A DNA stretch of 64,000 nucleotides from Mycobacteriales bacterium (lineage in GTDB: Bacteria > Actinomycetota > Actinomycetes > Mycobacteriales > SCTD01): positions 81,503 through 145,502 of the forward strand of contig JBBDWV010000052.1 of assembly GCA_040902655.1 (NCBI GenBank). The letters are read 5' to 3'. Under the pieces are notes generated by a model. It saw only the letters and a list, made by a program, of their open reading frames with translations. It was not told the origin of the DNA and did not search any database. Within the stretch, counting starts at the first letter, position 1. Every line of letters begins with the position of its first letter. A program made the position numbers and the translations under genes. Positions 15,567 through 25,429 of this stretch are shown one piece after another.

Positions 15567-16226
15567 TCAGGCGGAGGTCCCGCGCCGGGAGGGGTGCCGG
15601 TCGAGCGCGGTGAGGATCTCGTCAGTCGTCCGCGCCCGGGCGGTGCGGGGGAAGACATCGTCGGCAAAGAAGGCGCGCTGGGGAGCGCGGCCGGTCAGGC
15701 CCTCGGGGACGACGAAGACCTGCAGGTCCAGGTCGCGCGCCGCGTAGGCGGTGGACGCGACGCCGACGTGGGTGGAGCCGCCGACGAGGATGAGCGTGTC
15801 CGCGCCTCGGGCCCGCATGGCCGGGAGCAAACAGGTGCCGTGCAGGGCCGACCAGCGGTGCTTGGGTACGTCGAGGTCGTCCGGCTGCTGGCCGAGCTCG
15901 ACGAGCGTGCGGTAGCCCGGGTCGCCCTGGCCGTGCGGCGGGCGCAGCGGCCGTGGATGGTCCGGTCCGAACGCCCGGTGCCGGCCGTCGAGGTCGGTCA
16001 GCGCACGGGCGAAGTCCAGGCCGTCCGCCCGGTGGTCGGCCCGCGCCCAGGCGACGACGACGCCGCGCGACCGGCACCCGTCGGCCAGGCGGCGCACACG
16101 CGGGATCGCCCCGGCCGCCTCCGCGCCGTCCCGGTAGTGCTCGAGCATGTCGAATACGCAGAGGAACGTCCGTGCGGGGTCGAGCACCTCCTCGCCGCGG
16201 AACAGGGTCGGATCGGCGGCGCTCAC
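15567..16226 (-). CDS. Isochorismatase-family hydrolase with Gly at the nucleophile position
   Basis: A 219-residue isochorismatase-fold protein. The catalytic aspartate is in FLCVFDMLEHY (residues about 21-31) and the lysine in DVPKHRWSAL. The position usually held by the nucleophilic cysteine is glycine, in VGGSTHVGVAST. In the family, Cys marks amidases such as nicotinamidase and N-carbamoylsarcosine amidase. A Gly at this point is known from true isochorismatases such as EntB and PhzD, which hydrolyse vinyl ethers by acid catalysis. So this protein may cleave a non-amide bond or be inactive. GTG start overlaps the ThDP gene stop (GTGA), and the gene ends the operon that begins at 20969. 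Confidence 0.82.
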   Translation of the reverse strand: MSAADPTLFRGEEVLDPARTFLCVFDMLEHYRDGAEAAGAIPRVRRLADGCRSRGVVVAWARADHRADGLDFARALTDLDGRHRAFGPDHPRPLRPPHGQGDPGYRTLVELGQQPDDLDVPKHRWSALHGTCLLPAMRARGADTLILVGGSTHVGVASTAYAARDLDLQVFVVPEGLTGRAPQRAFFADDVFPRTARARTTDEILTALDRHPSRRGTSA

Positions 16227-17974
16227 TGCGGCGCCGTCCGCACGTGCACGACGGCGACCTCGCCCGCGAGGGCCTTGGCCACGCCCTCACCGAGGGCGCC
16301 GGGCAGGTCGTCGGGCTCGCAGACCGGCCCCGTCGCCCAGCAGCCGTACGACCGGGCCAGCGCTGCCAGGTCGACAGCCGGGCCGGTCATGCGCATCCCG
16401 ATCCAGCTGTTGTCCGCCGCGCGGCCCCGGTGGCGTGCCACCTCCGCCTGGTGCGGCTCGTCGTTGTAGAAGCTGCTGTTGTCGTTCACCACCACCAGAG
16501 CCGGGATCTTGTAGTGGACGGCGGTCCAGAGCGCCCCGGGGGCCATGAGCAGATCGCCGTCACCCAGGATCCCGACCCCCAGCTGACCGCGGTCGCGAGC
16601 AGCCAGCGCCCCTCCGACCAGGGCCCCTGGCCCGTAACCGACCCCGCCCCCGCCGGAGTGACCGAGGTAGCTGCCGGCGCCCGGGAACTGCCAGACGCCC
16701 TCGGGCCAGGTGCGGGTGTTGCGCAGGCAGAGCAGGTGCTCGACGTCTTTGACCGCCCGCCAGGTCTCGGCGACGAGGCGAGAGGGGGCGATCGGCGTGC
16801 CGTCCCAGCGCTGCTCGACCGCGGCCCACTGCCGCGCGCGCAGCGCGGATACCCGGCGGCAGACGGCGTCACGGCGCCGGTCCGCCGCGGCGGGGTCGAG
16901 TCGCCTGCGGACCGCGGCGGTCAGCTGTGCCAGACCGAGGACAGGGTCGGCCAGCAGCTGCACGGTGCGGGGGACGGGCACGGCGAACGCATTGCTCCAG
17001 GACCGCAGGCCCAGGTCGCCGTGAGAGAGGTCGACCACCGCAGCGTCGGGCAGCGGCGCGGTGTCCCCGCGGCCACGACCCTTGCTCCGCAGCAGCCCAG
17101 GCAGGTCCACGACGTCGACCGCGAGGACCACGTCCGCCTCATGCAGCAGGTCGACGTCGCCGGTGGCGTTCTGGCGGTGGGCGGTCGGGAAGGCGACGTT
17201 GTTGCGGTCGTCGCGATAGGCCGCGCCGAGCAGCTCGACGAGCGCGACGAGCGGGGCCGTCGCCCGGGTGTCCAGGCCGATCCGCCCGGCGATGACGACC
17301 GGGCACTCAGCCGCGACGAGCAGCTCTGCGGCGCGGTCGACCTCCGACTGGAGCGCCGCAACCGGCGGTGCGGGAGCGTGCAGGGCCAGGTCCGGCAGCG
17401 GGACCGGACCGGCCAGCTCTTCCTCCTGCACGCCGGCGTCGAGCGAGACGTAGGCGGGTCCTCGCGGCGCGGACAGGGCCCGCTGCCGGGCCCGCGTGAC
17501 GTCCGCCACCGAGGCCGCAGCGGTCGCGGGTTCGGCGTCCCACACGACGAAGTCGCGGACCAGCTGGGCCTGGGTCGTGGCCGAGTGGATCCAGTCGATG
17601 GGCCGACGCTGCGCGGGGTCCATCGGGCCGCTGCCGCCCAGGACCAGCAGCGGCGTGCGGTCGCAGAAGGCGTCGTAGACGGCCATCGAGGCGTGCATCA
17701 ACCCGACGAGGTCGTGTACTGCCGCAACGCCCAACCCGCCGGTCGCCTTGGCGTACCCGTGTGCCAGGGAGACCGCGATCTCCTCGTGCAGGCACAGCAG
17801 CAGCTGCGGGCTGCGGTTGCCGCCGTGGTTGACCAGCGAGTCGTGCAGGCCGCGGAAGCTCGAGCCCGGGTTGAGCGGGACGTAGGCGATCTCCATGGAC
17901 CGCAGCAGGTCGACCACGGCGTCACTGCCGTAGGTGGCGGACGGTCCGCCCGGTACGGGCAGCTCGACGCTCAC
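16223..17974 (-). CDS. ThDP-dependent acetolactate synthase-like enzyme (copy 3)
   Basis: A 583-residue ThDP enzyme closely related to the one at 57: both have LNPGSSFRGLHDSLVN, LCLHEEIAVS and PIDWIHSATTQAQLVRD. The diphosphate motif is LGDGDLLMAPGALW followed by VVNDN. The GTG start at 17974 overlaps the stop of the AAA+ ATPase gene by GTGA, and its own stop overlaps the hydrolase gene, so AAA+, ThDP enzyme and hydrolase are likely translated as a coupled unit. The reading frame stays open upstream into the ATPase gene, but that is a shadow in another frame and not a fusion. Probable function: decarboxylation or carboligation of a 2-oxo acid. Confidence 0.9.
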   Translation of the reverse strand: MSVELPVPGGPSATYGSDAVVDLLRSMEIAYVPLNPGSSFRGLHDSLVNHGGNRSPQLLLCLHEEIAVSLAHGYAKATGGLGVAAVHDLVGLMHASMAVYDAFCDRTPLLVLGGSGPMDPAQRRPIDWIHSATTQAQLVRDFVVWDAEPATAAASVADVTRARQRALSAPRGPAYVSLDAGVQEEELAGPVPLPDLALHAPAPPVAALQSEVDRAAELLVAAECPVVIAGRIGLDTRATAPLVALVELLGAAYRDDRNNVAFPTAHRQNATGDVDLLHEADVVLAVDVVDLPGLLRSKGRGRGDTAPLPDAAVVDLSHGDLGLRSWSNAFAVPVPRTVQLLADPVLGLAQLTAAVRRRLDPAAADRRRDAVCRRVSALRARQWAAVEQRWDGTPIAPSRLVAETWRAVKDVEHLLCLRNTRTWPEGVWQFPGAGSYLGHSGGGGVGYGPGALVGGALAARDRGQLGVGILGDGDLLMAPGALWTAVHYKIPALVVVNDNSSFYNDEPHQAEVARHRGRAADNSWIGMRMTGPAVDLAALARSYGCWATGPVCEPDDLPGALGEGVAKALAGEVAVVHVRTAPQ

Positions 17975-18813
17975 GACCCGGACCCGACCGCCGCGTGCAG
18001 GTCCTCGGCCAAGAGCAGACTCGGGTCGAGCGCCACCTCGCGTCGCTGCGCCAGGGCCGCGAGCACCAGCTTGCGGACCCGGCGCCCGTCCCAGCCCGTG
18101 CAGCGTTCGGCCAGCGCGGCGTGCAGCGCGTCGTCCTCGGCCAGCGGCTTGATGTCCGGCCAGATCCCGGCCAGCTCGCGCAGCGACGCGGCGACGATGG
18201 CCGCGACGGTTGCGGCGTCCGGGAGCGGGACGTGCAGGACGAGGTCGGCGCGCGAGAGGAACGCCTCGTCGATGGCCTGCGGGAAGTTCGTCGTCGTCAC
18301 GAACAGCACCCCCGGGTGGGACTGCGCGACCGCGTCGATGCCGGCCAGGAGCGCGTCGGTGGCGCGATGGACGTCGACGGGGTTGGTTTCGAAGGAGGCG
18401 ACCGAGCGGCGCACGGCCAGCGACTCGACCTCGTCGATGAGGACGACGGTGTGTGGCCGGCGGGCAGCGAGCTCGGGGACCGTGTCGTACAGCAGCCTGG
18501 TGATGGCCCGCTGGCTCTCGCCGAGCATCTCGCTCGGGAACGCGTGCGGGTCCACCTCTACATAGGTGGTCGCACCCTGGGGTGCCAACGCGCGCGCCGC
18601 CGCCTGGGCCAACCCGCGGGCCAGCGTCGTCTTGCCGGTCCCCGGAGGACCGGCAAGCACGATCAACCCGTGGGGAAGGCCCGGCAGCGTGGCCAGGCGG
18701 TGGCCGTGCCGCATGGTGAGCAGCGCGGTCGACAGCAGCCGCTCCTTGGTGCCGGGTGGCACCAGGATGTGGTCCCACGGGCCGTCGTGGTGATCCGAGG
18801 GCAGGGCGTGCAT
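17971..18813 (-). CDS. TRIP13/Pch2-like AAA+ ATPase
   Basis: A single-domain AAA+ ATPase of about 280 residues. It has Walker A GPPGTGKTTLA (about residues 55-65), Walker B VVLIDEVESL (about 123-132), sensor 1 LFVTTTNF, an arginine-finger-type block AFLSRADLVLHVPLP and sensor 2 GWDGRRVRKL. The combination IDEVESL, TTTNF and GR-VRKL is typical of the TRIP13/Pch2 group, which remodels partner proteins by pulling on their N-termini. No HORMA-domain gene or nucleotidyltransferase is nearby, so a CBASS role is not supported. The neighbours are a bicupin upstream and a ThDP enzyme downstream, which suggests a remodelling or reactivating role for one of them. The start is uncertain: ATG 18813, or GTGs slightly upstream. 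Confidence 0.8.
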   Translation of the reverse strand: MHALPSDHHDGPWDHILVPPGTKERLLSTALLTMRHGHRLATLPGLPHGLIVLAGPPGTGKTTLARGLAQAAARALAPQGATTYVEVDPHAFPSEMLGESQRAITRLLYDTVPELAARRPHTVVLIDEVESLAVRRSVASFETNPVDVHRATDALLAGIDAVAQSHPGVLFVTTTNFPQAIDEAFLSRADLVLHVPLPDAATVAAIVAASLRELAGIWPDIKPLAEDDALHAALAERCTGWDGRRVRKLVLAALAQRREVALDPSLLLAEDLHAAVGSGS

Positions 18814-18853
18814 GGAGAGCACGCCCTGCGGCAGGGCGCTGGACCGCACCGGC

Positions 18854-19921
18854 TCAGGGCCAGGTGGGGCGCTCGACGGCCGGCCAGTCGACCGTCGACG
18901 GGTCACCAGCCTGGGCATCGCGGATCTCGTCCGACGGCTCTTCGAACAGCACCATCGGATCCATCAGCACCCGCATGGTCTCGAGCAGGCTGTCGAACAT
19001 GTGGATCCGGACCACCTTGGCGGTCTTGTCCGGGTCGTCGTTGAAGTGCTGGTGCCACAGGAAGTGGTCGACGACGATGATGTCGCCCTTCTCCCACGGG
19101 TGGTTCTCGCCCTTGTCCGGCTCGGTGCCGAGAAAGCTGTGCCCGCGTCCCTCGACGACGTAGAGCCAGGCCTCACCCGGGTGCCGGTGCATCGACTGGC
19201 CCCGGCCGGGACCGATCTCGAACATCGCCATGGTGATGCCGGACGCCTGGTAGCCGATGGCCTTGTCCAGCAGGAACGTCGTGCGCGTGCCGCGCGGGGT
19301 CGGCAGCAGCTCGAGGGAGTCCCAGCTGGTGTGCAGCCGGCCGGAGCGGCGGGCGTCCTGGTCTCGGGCCAGTCGACGCACGCGACGGGCGTAGGGGTCG
19401 TCGCCGTCGATGGCCGGCGCGTACGGCGGGCGCGGCGCGAGCTCTGCCGCCGGGGTCTGCCCGGCGTCCTCGAGGAAGGCCATGCCCATCGTCTCCAGCA
19501 GCGGCTCGCTGGAGAAGCTCAGGAAGCGGCCCGTCTCGCTGCCCTCGTTGCCGTGCCGGTGCCAGGCCCAGGCCGGCAGGTGCAGGGAGTCGCCGGGCCC
19601 CCACTCGATGCGCTCTCCGTCGATCTCGGTCCAGCCCCAGCCGGCGACGACGAACAGCATCGCGTCCCAGGAGTGGCGGTGGACGGTGGAGGTGGCGCCG
19701 GGGTTGATCTCGTGCACGAGGGCGTCCATCGAGCGGGTGGGCCGGTCGCCGTCGGCGCCGACGTAGACGCCGCGGCGCATACCCCGCGCCGTGTCCTGCA
19801 TCTCGACATCGGCCAGGCGCACCACCGTGTTGCGGTACTGCCGCCACTGCTCGAGGAAGTCGGCGCGGCGCTTCTTCTGCACGTGGTAGTGCGTGACCGC
19901 AGTGGTCGTCTTGTTCGGCAT
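18854..19921 (-). CDS. Bicupin protein, gentisate-dioxygenase-like (bicupin 1)
   Basis: A 355-residue protein with two cupin barrels. The N-terminal barrel has TVHRHSWDAMLFVVAG and AWHRHGNEG; the C-terminal barrel has MHRHPGEAWLYVVEGRGHS and LWHQHFND. Both barrels therefore keep metal-type histidines. This layout is that of gentisate and 1-hydroxy-2-naphthoate 1,2-dioxygenases, which use Fe(II) to open aromatic rings, but sequence alone does not prove dioxygenase activity. It begins one base after the TctC-like gene stop and precedes the AAA+ ATPase by 40 bases. Distant paralogues are at 24311 and 39380. Confidence 0.83.
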   Translation of the reverse strand: MPNKTTTAVTHYHVQKKRRADFLEQWRQYRNTVVRLADVEMQDTARGMRRGVYVGADGDRPTRSMDALVHEINPGATSTVHRHSWDAMLFVVAGWGWTEIDGERIEWGPGDSLHLPAWAWHRHGNEGSETGRFLSFSSEPLLETMGMAFLEDAGQTPAAELAPRPPYAPAIDGDDPYARRVRRLARDQDARRSGRLHTSWDSLELLPTPRGTRTTFLLDKAIGYQASGITMAMFEIGPGRGQSMHRHPGEAWLYVVEGRGHSFLGTEPDKGENHPWEKGDIIVVDHFLWHQHFNDDPDKTAKVVRIHMFDSLLETMRVLMDPMVLFEEPSDEIRDAQAGDPSTVDWPAVERPTWP

Positions 19922-19922
19922 G

Positions 19923-20969
19923 TCAGTAGCTCTCCGTGACGAGGGCGGTGAATTCCTCCGGCGACTGGAGGACGTCCTGGATGAGTTGCGCGGTCTCTTC
20001 GCCGCTGAGTGGGTCCAGCGGGCGCTTCTGCTCCTCCAGCTCGGCCAGCAGGTCGTCCTGCTCGACCGCGCACTGGAAGCCCTCGCGCAGCGCCGTCAAC
20101 CGGGCGTCGTCCATCTCCGGCGACGCCATCAGCGCTCGGCCGGTCTGTCCCATCGCCACCAGGCTGTCGATGATCGCCTTGGCGTCCTCGCCCGGATCGG
20201 TGTCGTAGATCGTGGGCGTGTCCGGCAGCAGCGGGTCCGGCTCCTCGTCGATGGTGACGATCGGCCGCACGTCGCCGGACTCGATGGCGCCGAGCTGGCT
20301 GTCGACGGGCAGTGCATGAGCGTCGGCGTCGCCGGCGATGACGGCGGTGCGTGCCTCGGAGGAGCCGGCGAAGCCGGTGATGATCTCGTACGGGAAGTCG
20401 TAGGCCTGGGCAACGATGTTCGGCGCGATGTAGTCGTTGGCCCCTTCGCCCTGGGCGACGAAGCGGATCGGCGAGGAGGCGTCGACCATGTCCTGGAAGC
20501 TCTTGATGGGGCTGTTAGCGCCCACCACGATGACGTTGGGCGGCGAGGAGACCCGGCCGATCCAGGACAGGTCGTTGAGGTCGAAGTTGGCCCCCTCCGC
20601 GCCGGCGAGCTGTGCTGAGACCAGCCCGGCGGTGTTGACGATCTGGATCCGGTCCGCGTCGGTTGGCGCGGCGGCCGTCTTGTTGGTGGCCAGCAGGCCG
20701 CCGGCACCCGGCTCGTTCTTGACCACGATGGTGGCGCCGAGGCACTGCTCGAGGTAGGGAGCCATCGCGCGGGCGTAGGCGTCGTAACCGCCGCCGGGCT
20801 CGTACGGCACGACCAGGTCCAGGGCCACGCCGTCGAACACCGCCTCGTCAGCAGCGCCCCCAGCCGGTGCGGCGGTGTCGCTGCCGCCTTCGTCAGATCC
20901 GCAGGCGACCAAACCTGCCAGCGCGGCTGCCAGCACCACTCGGTGCGCGATGCGCGGGGGCCTGGGCAT
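19923..20969 (-). CDS. TctC/Bug-family tripartite tricarboxylate binding lipoprotein
   Basis: A secreted protein of 348 residues with lipoprotein signal (VVLAAALAGLVACGSDEGG, lipobox LVAC near residue 23). The mature protein follows the Bug/TctC pattern: LDLVVPYEPGGGYDAYARAM, GATIVVKNEPGAGG and later FVAQGEGANDYIAPNIVAQ. Bug proteins capture carboxylates for TctAB permeases or act as sensors. No TctA or TctB gene is in the window. The ATG at 20969 has GAAAGGG upstream. It is the first gene of the five-gene minus-strand operon down to 15567, with an operator-like motif 32 bases upstream of the start. Confidence 0.85.
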   Translation of the reverse strand: MPRPPRIAHRVVLAAALAGLVACGSDEGGSDTAAPAGGAADEAVFDGVALDLVVPYEPGGGYDAYARAMAPYLEQCLGATIVVKNEPGAGGLLATNKTAAAPTDADRIQIVNTAGLVSAQLAGAEGANFDLNDLSWIGRVSSPPNVIVVGANSPIKSFQDMVDASSPIRFVAQGEGANDYIAPNIVAQAYDFPYEIITGFAGSSEARTAVIAGDADAHALPVDSQLGAIESGDVRPIVTIDEEPDPLLPDTPTIYDTDPGEDAKAIIDSLVAMGQTGRALMASPEMDDARLTALREGFQCAVEQDDLLAELEEQKRPLDPLSGEETAQLIQDVLQSPEEFTALVTESY

Positions 20970-21000
20970 CACTGGGCGCGCCCTTTCGACGTAGGCATAA

Positions 21001-21011
21001 TGGTCAGTCCA
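21001..21011 (-). promoter_or_regulatory. Putative operator, site 4 (TGGACTGACCA on minus strand)
   Basis: On the minus strand TGGACTGACCA, one base away from TGGTNNNACCA. It lies just upstream of the TctC-like gene and would suit control of the five-gene operon. It shares the 200-base divergent gap with site 5. Confidence 0.42.
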
Positions 21012-21104
21012 AAGAACCACAGTCGTGGTCAGGTGGCAAGGCCCCCAGGACGACTTGCTGCCTCGGCGCGACGGAGCAGGTTCATCACTCGCGCAAGGAA
21101 CCTA

Positions 21105-22781: not shown

Positions 22782-24281
22782 GTGCACAACGACCACGACC
22801 ACGACCACTGGCACAGGTCCGGCCCGGCCGGAGAGTCGGACCGCACCTTCCTGGACGTGGAGGGTCTCGAGCAGTACACGCTCACCTCGGTGGGCGTCGA
22901 CATCGGCTCATCGACCTCGCAGGTCATGGTCGCCGGCCTGACCATTCGGCGCCGCGGAAGTGACCTGTCGACCGAGTTCGAGGTCACCGAGCGCGAGATC
23001 CGCTACGTCAGTCCACCGCTGCTGACGCCGTACTCCTGCGGCACGAGGATGGATGTCTCCCTTCTGGAGCAATTCGTCCGGGAGTCGTACGCGCAAGCCG
23101 GTCTCGTGCCGGAGCGCGTGGACACGGGTGTGGTCGTCGTCACGGGTGAGGCGCTGAACAAGGAGAATGCAGCGGAGATCGCCGCTCTCGCCTCCAGTTG
23201 GTCGGGGGACTTCATCTGCGTCTCGGCCGGTGCGAACCACGAGGCGGTCCTTGCTGCACACGGCTCGGGGTCGGTGGCGCTCTCCGAGCGGGAGAACTGC
23301 ACGGTCCTGAACGTCGACATTGGTGGTGGGACGACGAAGGTCTGCCTCATCGACCGCGGGCGGATCGTCTACCGGGAGGCCTTCAGCGTCGGTGCCCGCC
23401 TCGTCGCCTGGGAGCCGGACGGCCGGATCGCCAGGCTGGAGGCCCCGGCTCACGTGTTCGCGGCCCAAACCGGAGACGCGCTCCAGCTCGGCGGCACCAT
23501 CGGCCCGGGTGAGATCGACCGGTTGGCCGAACTCATGGCGCAGGTGGTCCTCGACGCGATCGTCCCAGGCCCGGTTGCCGGGCTCCGCCGTGACCTCATG
23601 GTCACCCACGCTGCGGATGCGGCGGCGGCGGAACGACCGGCTTTCGACCGGATAGTTTTCTCGGGCGGCGTCTCGGAGTACGTCAACCGCGACGAGGTGG
23701 AGTCCTACGGGGACTTCGGACCCGCGCTCGGCGGGCACATCCGGCGTTGCCTGTATCAGGCCGGTCTCGCTGAGTTCGTCACGCGCGCCGAGCACGGCAT
23801 CCGGGCCACGGTCATCGGTGCGAGCCAGTTCTCGGTCCAGGCAAGTGGCCAGACCTGCTACATCTCCGCGGACCACCTGCTCCCGGTAAGGAGCCTGCCC
23901 GTCGCGCACGTCGAATTTTCTCCCGGAGCGGACCCGGAGGAGGCGATCCGGGTCGCGCTGCGCGGACGCGATCGGTCCGACCTGAGTGATCCACTCGCGC
24001 TGGCAGTGTCCTTCCAGGGCCGGCGGAACTACCCGGCGCTGCGCCGCTACGCGGAGGCGCTGGTACTCGTGGCGGCGGGTTCGGCCCTCTACCTGGTCCT
24101 CCGGGACGACCTGGCCCAGGCCCTTGGTCGCCTGATGGTCGCCGAGCTGGCCCATCCCGGACCGGTCGTCGTCGTCGACGGGATCACCGTCGGCGATCTG
24201 GACTACCTGGACATCGGCCGCCCCATGGGGGCGACCCGCTCGATCCCGGTCACGATCAAGTCCCTTGCCTTCCCCCGATGA
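22782..24281 (+). CDS. EutA-like ASKHA-fold protein with His-rich N-terminus (copy 1)
   Basis: A 499-residue member of the EutA family (ethanolamine ammonia-lyase reactivase) in the actin/Hsp70 ATPase superfamily. Phosphate 1 motif is VGVDIGSSTSQVMV (about residues 37-50), phosphate 2 is LNVDIGGGTTKVCLID (about 175-190) and the adenosine region is FSGGVSEY. EutA releases damaged cobalamin from its lyase using ATP, but no EutB/EutC or other B12 enzyme is in the window. The N-terminus carries a run of alternating His and Asp (HNDHDHDHWH), a likely metal-binding tail. GTG start with CCGGAGG upstream. The stop overlaps a bicupin frame; the same pairing occurs at 37698-40513. The target may thus be the bicupin. 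Confidence 0.82.
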   Translation: MHNDHDHDHWHRSGPAGESDRTFLDVEGLEQYTLTSVGVDIGSSTSQVMVAGLTIRRRGSDLSTEFEVTEREIRYVSPPLLTPYSCGTRMDVSLLEQFVRESYAQAGLVPERVDTGVVVVTGEALNKENAAEIAALASSWSGDFICVSAGANHEAVLAAHGSGSVALSERENCTVLNVDIGGGTTKVCLIDRGRIVYREAFSVGARLVAWEPDGRIARLEAPAHVFAAQTGDALQLGGTIGPGEIDRLAELMAQVVLDAIVPGPVAGLRRDLMVTHAADAAAAERPAFDRIVFSGGVSEYVNRDEVESYGDFGPALGGHIRRCLYQAGLAEFVTRAEHGIRATVIGASQFSVQASGQTCYISADHLLPVRSLPVAHVEFSPGADPEEAIRVALRGRDRSDLSDPLALAVSFQGRRNYPALRRYAEALVLVAAGSALYLVLRDDLAQALGRLMVAELAHPGPVVVVDGITVGDLDYLDIGRPMGATRSIPVTIKSLAFPR

Positions 24282-24310
24282 ACCCGAAGACCGCCCTGCC
24301 GAGGAGTGAC

Positions 24311-25429
24311 ATGCCAGAAGAAACTCAGCCCACCCCCCGCACAACGTTCGTCTACGACGAGTGGATGGAGAGCCAGGAGCTCCCAATCTACCGGGGGCAC
24401 TTCGTACCCGACATGCGGACCCTCCCTCTGGCGCGCTGGGAGGAGCGCGGTTGCGATGCGGCGTTCGTCCAGCTGACCGGCCAGGAGGGAGTGAGCGAGG
24501 CGCGCATCACCGAGATCGCGCCGGGTGAGACCCTGCCGCCGTTCAAACTCGCCATCGACGAGATGGTCTACGTGGTGAGCGGTTCCGGCTCCACCCGCGT
24601 GTGGGCCCACGGTAACCGGGCCGAGGACGGACACCAGTTCGAGTGGCACGACAAGGCGCTGTTCATGATCCCGCCGAACCACTACGCGGAGTACAGCAAT
24701 CTCCGCGGTGACCAACCCGTGCGCCTGCTGCACTACACCTATTTGCCACTGGCCATGTCGCTGGTGACGGATCCTGACTTCTTCTTCGACAATCCGTACA
24801 GCCGCAGCACGAGCAGCATCGGCTTACAGTCCGCGTTCTCTGAAGCCAAGATGATCAGCGGTGGAGAGGGCTTCCGGTGGATCATCAGCCGGCACAGGAA
24901 CGTAGCGTACTGGTACGGCAACTTCTTCCCGGACATGGGCGCATGGGAGAAGTTGGACGCAAACCCTTACCGAGGTGCGGGTGGCAGCACGGTTCGCATG
25001 CAGTTCGCGGGATCGGACATGAGCTGTCACATGTCGGTGTTCGACGCAATGACTTACAAGAAGGCGCATCGGCATGGACCCGGCCGCGTCATCGTCATCC
25101 CCTCGGGGGAGGGCTATTCGACCTTGTGGCTGGAGGGTCAGGAAGAGCCGGTGGTCGTGCCGTGGCAGGAAGCGGCACTGTTCGTGCCGCCGGACCGTTG
25201 GTTCCATCAGCATTTCAACCTGAGTGGTGAACCGGCCCGATATCTGGCGCTCCATCCGCCGATGCAATTTCACGGCTACGCAGAAAAGGCAGAAGACCGC
25301 GAGCGGGATCAGATCGAGTACCCGGACCAGGACCCCAGCGTCCGGCTGCGCTTCGAGGCGGAACTGGCGAAGCGTGGCCTCGAGAGCCGCATGCCGAAGG
25401 ACGCCTACGAGGGCCACGGCGACGCCTGA
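24311..25429 (+). CDS. Bicupin protein paired with EutA-like gene (bicupin 2)
   Basis: A 372-residue double-cupin protein. The C-terminal barrel is complete in its metal motifs: KKAHRHGPGRVIVIPSGEGYS and RWFHQHFNLSGEP. The N-terminal barrel has ETLPPFKLAIDEMVYVVSG and NHYAEYSN and has lost most ligands. It is closely related to the protein at 39380 and resembles ring-opening dioxygenases of the gentisate type. The ATG at 24311 follows GAGGAGTGAC closely. An ATG at 24278, overlapping the upstream stop (ATGA), would add 11 residues. Third codon positions look poorer in G/C than in neighbours left of 21 kb, a hint of different origin. Confidence 0.83.
   Translation: MPEETQPTPRTTFVYDEWMESQELPIYRGHFVPDMRTLPLARWEERGCDAAFVQLTGQEGVSEARITEIAPGETLPPFKLAIDEMVYVVSGSGSTRVWAHGNRAEDGHQFEWHDKALFMIPPNHYAEYSNLRGDQPVRLLHYTYLPLAMSLVTDPDFFFDNPYSRSTSSIGLQSAFSEAKMISGGEGFRWIISRHRNVAYWYGNFFPDMGAWEKLDANPYRGAGGSTVRMQFAGSDMSCHMSVFDAMTYKKAHRHGPGRVIVIPSGEGYSTLWLEGQEEPVVVPWQEAALFVPPDRWFHQHFNLSGEPARYLALHPPMQFHGYAEKAEDRERDQIEYPDQDPSVRLRFEAELAKRGLESRMPKDAYEGHGDA

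Follow-up and report, generated by a model that had tools for sequence, protein, structure and literature searches.

The locus that we analyzed lies in a window of 64,000 nucleotides from the genome of a Mycobacteriales bacterium (3.56 Mb, 98% complete), and it consists of a run of five genes on the minus strand that are separated by few-base gaps or joined by 4-bp overlaps. Judging from the order of the genes in the sequence, the apparent operon starts with a gene for a TctC-like solute-binding protein (19923..21020; Pfam PF03401, E 1e-16). This gene is followed by a bicupin of 355 aa that resembles gentisate and salicylate 1,2-dioxygenases and contains the Cupin_2 domain twice (18854..19921), an AAA+ ATPase of the TRIP13/Pch2 family (17971..18849), and two accessory genes, which encode a decarboxylase/acetolactate-synthase-like thiamine diphosphate (ThDP) enzyme with N and C TPP_enzyme domains (16223..17974) and an isochorismatase-like hydrolase (15567..16226; Pfam PF00857, E 4e-23). 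The AAA+ and ThDP genes overlap by the tetranucleotide GTGA (17971-17974), as do the ThDP and isochorismatase-like genes. The AAA+ reading frame is intact and can be read either from an ATG at 18813 (280 aa, beginning MHALPSDHHDGPWDHILVPPG...) or from a GTG at 18849, 4 bp past the bicupin stop (292 aa). The GTG is the likelier start because the residues LPxGxxSxHALP upstream of the ATG are common to the homologues, which themselves start at an upstream GTG or ATG. The closest relatives at the AAA+ locus were found in records of Blastococcus and Pseudonocardia.

Profile HMM, PDB sequence search, phylogenetic tree and predicted fold all place the AAA+ protein in the TRIP13/Pch2 group. The PADLOC TRIP13 model PDLC00915 matches residues 3-276 with E 5.7e-96 (it also scores the AAA+ relatives at loci L042 and L074 very highly), and the top five PDB matches by sequence are all PCH-2/TRIP13 proteins (E 2e-26 to 7e-25). 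In a tree of 51 proteins, a branch with support of 98/89 sets the cupin-linked, CBASS and eukaryotic TRIP13 proteins apart from the classic AAA+ proteins of the same genome. The cupin-linked and CBASS rows do not mix in this tree (one change over all 200 bootstrap trees), while the branch between the two is weak (51/41), the internal order is poorly resolved, and a PDLC00914-type TRIP13 (L101) sits on a very long branch. The AlphaFold2 model of the AAA+ protein (pLDDT 88) matches the fold of E. coli CBASS Trip13 (6p8v) with Z 25.2, human TRIP13 (6f0x) with Z 23.7, and PCH-2 (4xgu) with Z 23.0; the fold by itself is not decisive, since other classic AAA+ proteins follow close behind with Z 21-23. 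CbbX is not among the matches listed for the protein by NCBIfam, PDB or fold comparison. The initial annotation had assigned the gene to the TRIP13 group from the motifs IDEVESL, TTTNF and GR-VRKL (here GRRVRKL), all of which are present; every line of evidence agrees with that assignment, and in none of them did the protein fall into another AAA+ clade.

TRIP13/Pch2 proteins are regarded as remodellers of HORMA proteins in meiosis, the cell-division checkpoint and CBASS phage defence. The nearest relatives of the AAA+ protein outside the cupin-linked group (41-48% identical, on plasmids and in genomes) are CBASS TRIP13s that stand with two HORMA-type genes, a cyclase and an effector; all of the annotated ones have the HORMA-type genes and the cyclase, and two plasmid records are unannotated. 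The earlier observation that no HORMA or cyclase gene accompanies the ATPase is borne out for the whole genome of our bacterium, in which HORMA_2, the SMODS cyclase (whose positive controls matched) and the PDLC00809 cyclase gave no hit, as did bacHORMA_1 in a search that had no positive control. The PDLC00809 cyclase was absent from seven genomes including this one and was detected in the CBASS controls G179 and G341; the same is true of HORMA_2, although highly diverged HORMA folds could escape its search. Gene clustering revealed no HORMA gene that recurs at the 71 cupin-type loci described below, and no CBASS gene recurs next to the AAA+ gene there. The absence of HORMA_2 lowers the case for a HORMA remodeller, not that for a TRIP13-family ATPase.

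The Walker A sequence GPPGTGK, the Walker B DE, the sensor-1 TxN and the arginines R188 and R244 are invariant over 41 AAA+ homologues, on account of which the protein should be an active ATPase. The cupin-linked proteins differ from their relatives in pore loop 1, whose codons and flanks lie at 18508..18552 on the minus strand (DPHAFPSEMLGESQR). This loop reads PS[ED][ML]LGE in nearly all cupin-linked AAA+ proteins, whereas CBASS members have MSAEHGQS, SSAMGKT or SSSHGKS at this place, and eukaryotic TRIP13 has FSKWFSES. In PCH-2, mutation of a tryptophan or phenylalanine in the pore loop alters ATPase activity, and the loop has been proposed to engage substrate (PMC4439613); given this role, the difference between the groups would fit a change of client.

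We identified 72 loci in a patterned scan of 84,980 genomes that was restricted to close relatives. The bicupin gene is the immediate same-strand upstream neighbour of the AAA+ gene in 71 of them, and the only other one, L078, proved to be a true CBASS operon, which leaves the pairing without exception among the 71 non-CBASS loci. The gaps between the two genes are mostly -10 to +60 bp, and the pairing is conserved across Actinomycetota and Acidobacteriota. In a sample of 393 genomes of the class, five carry an AAA+ protein of 65% identity or more; these are also the five with a bicupin of 76% identity or more, and in each of them the two genes are neighbours. In genome G563 (AAA+ 54% identical) the two genes are still adjacent though convergent, which argues against operon drift as the sole cause of their linkage. 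Thus the pairing is real and conserved, and in soil actinobacteria this AAA+ protein is strictly paired with the bicupin; because of this strict pairing, it probably services the cupin protein instead of HORMA proteins. The distance correlation between the two proteins (r 0.67) was rejected as proof of their interaction, as it is unspecific: the MFS gene shows a higher correlation within the subset of loci that have it. A divergent TRIP13-like AAA+ gene (52% identical) at locus L081 (7841-9758, minus strand) stands with two single-cupin ORFs where the HORMA genes would be, adjoining an ABC transporter. It is not quite a plain split form of the same bicupin, since its cupins are nearer to a second bicupin of the clusters (cluster 5, present in 38 of the 72 loci) than to the first, and it is a possible independent cupin pairing.

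The genes directly downstream of the AAA+ gene are more variable and include the ThDP enzyme (about 20 of 72 loci), the second bicupin on the opposite strand (15), the isochorismatase-like hydrolase (8) and others. Relatives of the ThDP enzyme occur in 25 of the 72 loci, 20 of them with the gene directly downstream of AAA+, and the isochorismatase-like gene occurs in 15. The distance correlation between the AAA+ and ThDP proteins, in the subset of loci with both, is 0.12. The initial annotation had described the AAA+ gene as coupled to the ThDP enzyme and following a bicupin, and it would have given up its reading if this order were unique to the genome. The GTGA overlap and the upstream bicupin are both there, and neither element of the order is confined to this genome; however, the conserved partner is the bicupin (71 of 71) and not the ThDP enzyme, which the neighbour counts rule out as an obligate partner. 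The same difference in adjacency makes the bicupin the probable client of the AAA+ protein.

The best PDB matches of the bicupin, both by sequence and by Foldseek, are gentisate and salicylate 1,2-dioxygenases (3bu7, 2phd), at about 20% identity, and the NCBIfam gentisate and 5-aminosalicylate models match it far under their cut-offs. The protein thus resembles a ring-cleaving dioxygenase, with the activity being predicted. Two putative 3-His sites (H81/H83/H121 and H245/H247/H290) are invariant over 39 bicupin homologues, and for this reason both domains may bind metal. The genes found near the pair encode transporters, an RraA-type aldolase, an amidohydrolase, a class II aldolase, an aldehyde dehydrogenase and relatives of other oxidoreductases; these neighbours support the metabolic setting first proposed for the AAA+ gene and are consistent with the catabolism of aromatic acids. 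An RraA-like aldolase, Amidohydro_2 and class II aldolase recur near the pair at L014-L023, L046, L049, L055 and other loci, and so do proteins that resemble Zn alcohol dehydrogenases and ferredoxin reductases, as well as a distant phosphonate-binding-like protein.

Bicupins that are 48-59% identical and have no adjoining AAA+ gene were found at four loci (L084, L085, L109 and L111), one of them in a similar catabolic cluster, so a bicupin of this kind is not inherently AAA+-dependent. In the tree, the AAA-linked bicupins group together in a single clade (SH-aLRT 96) that excludes the AAA-free homologues, and therefore, within our sample, the AAA+ protein seems to have joined the bicupin lineage once and to have been retained afterwards. 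The plasmid search found no bicupin. Two parts of the bicupin were considered as possible AAA-specific tags. The N-terminal tail is conserved, but it was rejected because AAA-free bicupins have the same tail. The C-terminal [TS]WP occurs in 70 of 72 AAA-linked bicupins and is only suggestive, as it is missing in the deepest members (L042 and L110). Thus no clear pulling tag was found in the bicupin.

A second, unrelated ATPase is also paired with a cupin protein in the window. At 22782-25429 on the plus strand, the gene for a EutA-like ATPase (Pfam EutA, E 2e-95) overlaps by 4 bp with that of a weakly recognisable bicupin. EutA is the reactivator of ethanolamine ammonia-lyase. The EutA-like/bicupin pair recurs near bicupin-AAA+ genes at nine loci (L009, L010, L011, L026, L028, L030, L060, L062 and L079).

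We estimate at roughly 55% the probability that the AAA+ protein is a TRIP13-family remodeller whose client has changed from HORMA proteins to a metal-binding bicupin, which it would probably activate or repair. In our estimate, there is about an even chance that the motor, having exchanged a HORMA client for one with a cupin fold, is now devoted to the dioxygenase-like bicupin as its ATP-dependent activase or metal-loading chaperone. In such a mechanism, the AAA+ protein would form a hexamer, and its PSEMLGES pore loops would grip a flexible part of the bicupin, either the conserved N-terminal tail or a C-terminal segment (both modelled with low confidence). ATP would then drive the opening or partial unfolding of one cupin domain, which could allow metal to be loaded or reloaded, or an inhibitory product or oxidised state to be released; an oligomer change of the bicupin is a further possible outcome. 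The model for this kind of action is CbbX, the gene of which lies directly downstream of rbcL/rbcS and which pulls a tail of Rubisco into its pore and thereby frees the active site (PMC5385338). The initial annotation had already compared the AAA+ protein with CbbX as a possible enzyme reactivase; this logic is plausible, and by the analogy, CbbX-like action on the bicupin is the most economical reading.

It is also conceivable that the bicupin is no client but an adaptor or ligand sensor, comparable to p31comet and HORMA proteins in their relation to TRIP13. After binding a small molecule, it would guide the AAA+ protein to a different target, for instance the second bicupin, or else a regulator or enzyme that the cluster encodes. 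Eukaryotic TRIP13 requires the adaptor p31comet (PMC4439613), and the second bicupin is a frequent member of the clusters, with the L081 AAA+ protein sitting next to two cupins of that very type. However, there is no third gene that occurs with the pair at every locus, and the invariance of both putative metal sites is expected of an enzyme rather than of a pure sensor, so that we regard this possibility as unlikely. Cupin dioxygenases are oligomers, and the AAA+ protein might instead promote the first folding, the oligomer assembly or the controlled disassembly and turnover of the bicupin, with no repair of an inhibited enzyme involved. Members of the TRIP13 family do disassemble or convert folded complexes (PMC4439613), and the genomic evidence for such a role is identical to that for activation; we nevertheless consider it rather improbable. 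There is very little likelihood that the AAA+ protein reactivates the ThDP enzyme, as the GTGA overlap in the window and the 20 loci with a ThDP relative directly downstream might suggest, because most loci have no ThDP gene next to AAA+ whereas the bicupin is always present, and the correlation of the two proteins is low. Equally far-fetched, in spite of the strong PADLOC TRIP13 match (E 6e-96) and the CBASS relatives outside the group, is a defence gene (a CBASS TRIP13 remnant or an immune regulator that acts on its own) carried along next to a metabolic one, given the lack of HORMA_2 and a matching cyclase in the genomes checked and of any recurring CBASS neighbour, the retention of the pairing across two phyla, the intact ATPase site and the distinct pore loop.

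If activation of the bicupin by the AAA+ protein is true, this would be the first TRIP13-family remodeller in metabolism, outside HORMA signalling. A search of the open papers found no description of a TRIP13-cupin pairing, which is apparently undescribed so far. A stable cupin-tied branch would show that the TRIP13 motor is able to switch its client, would provide a simple bacterial system for the study of TRIP13 substrate choice, and would extend ATP-driven activation to a dioxygenase-like enzyme. In addition, these metabolic genes are taken for parts of CBASS by defence-gene HMMs such as the PADLOC TRIP13 model, and the annotation of CBASS in actinobacteria may therefore be over-called.

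Several known systems share features with the pair. The gentisate and salicylate 1,2-dioxygenase bicupins have the same two cupin domains and are the top sequence and fold matches of the partner, but the identity is low (about 20%), and we know of no such dioxygenase reported with a dedicated AAA+ protein. The NorQ/MoxR-VWA metal-insertion chaperones may follow a similar logic, in which an AAA+ protein opens a metalloenzyme for the entry of a non-haem metal; unlike them, the AAA+ protein described here has no VWA partner among its recurring neighbours and is nearer to TRIP13 by sequence. Eukaryotic TRIP13/PCH-2 proteins provide the best PDB sequence matches (E 2e-26), fold similarity of Z 23-24, and the common IDEVESL and sensor motifs. 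In contrast to them, our protein lacks the N-terminal substrate-recognition domain and the WF pair of the pore loop, and no HORMA client was found for it. The CBASS TRIP13s (6p8v, 6pb3) share its AAA+ architecture of about 280-310 aa with no large N-domain, the full-length identity of 41-48% (to the two-HORMA members) and the best fold match (Z 25.2); they differ in the presence of HORMA and cyclase genes, whereas our protein has a bicupin as its neighbour, a catabolic cluster as its setting, and PSEMLGES in place of MSAEHGQS or SSAMGKT. As for CbbX, the activase of red-type Rubisco, the AAA+ protein is closer to TRIP13 than to other AAA+ groups in the searches made, no Rubisco gene cluster recurs at the 71 loci, and the neighbour in all of them is the cupin protein. 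The likeness to CbbX is one of working principle only, with an AAA+ gene placed directly downstream of the gene for its possible client enzyme.
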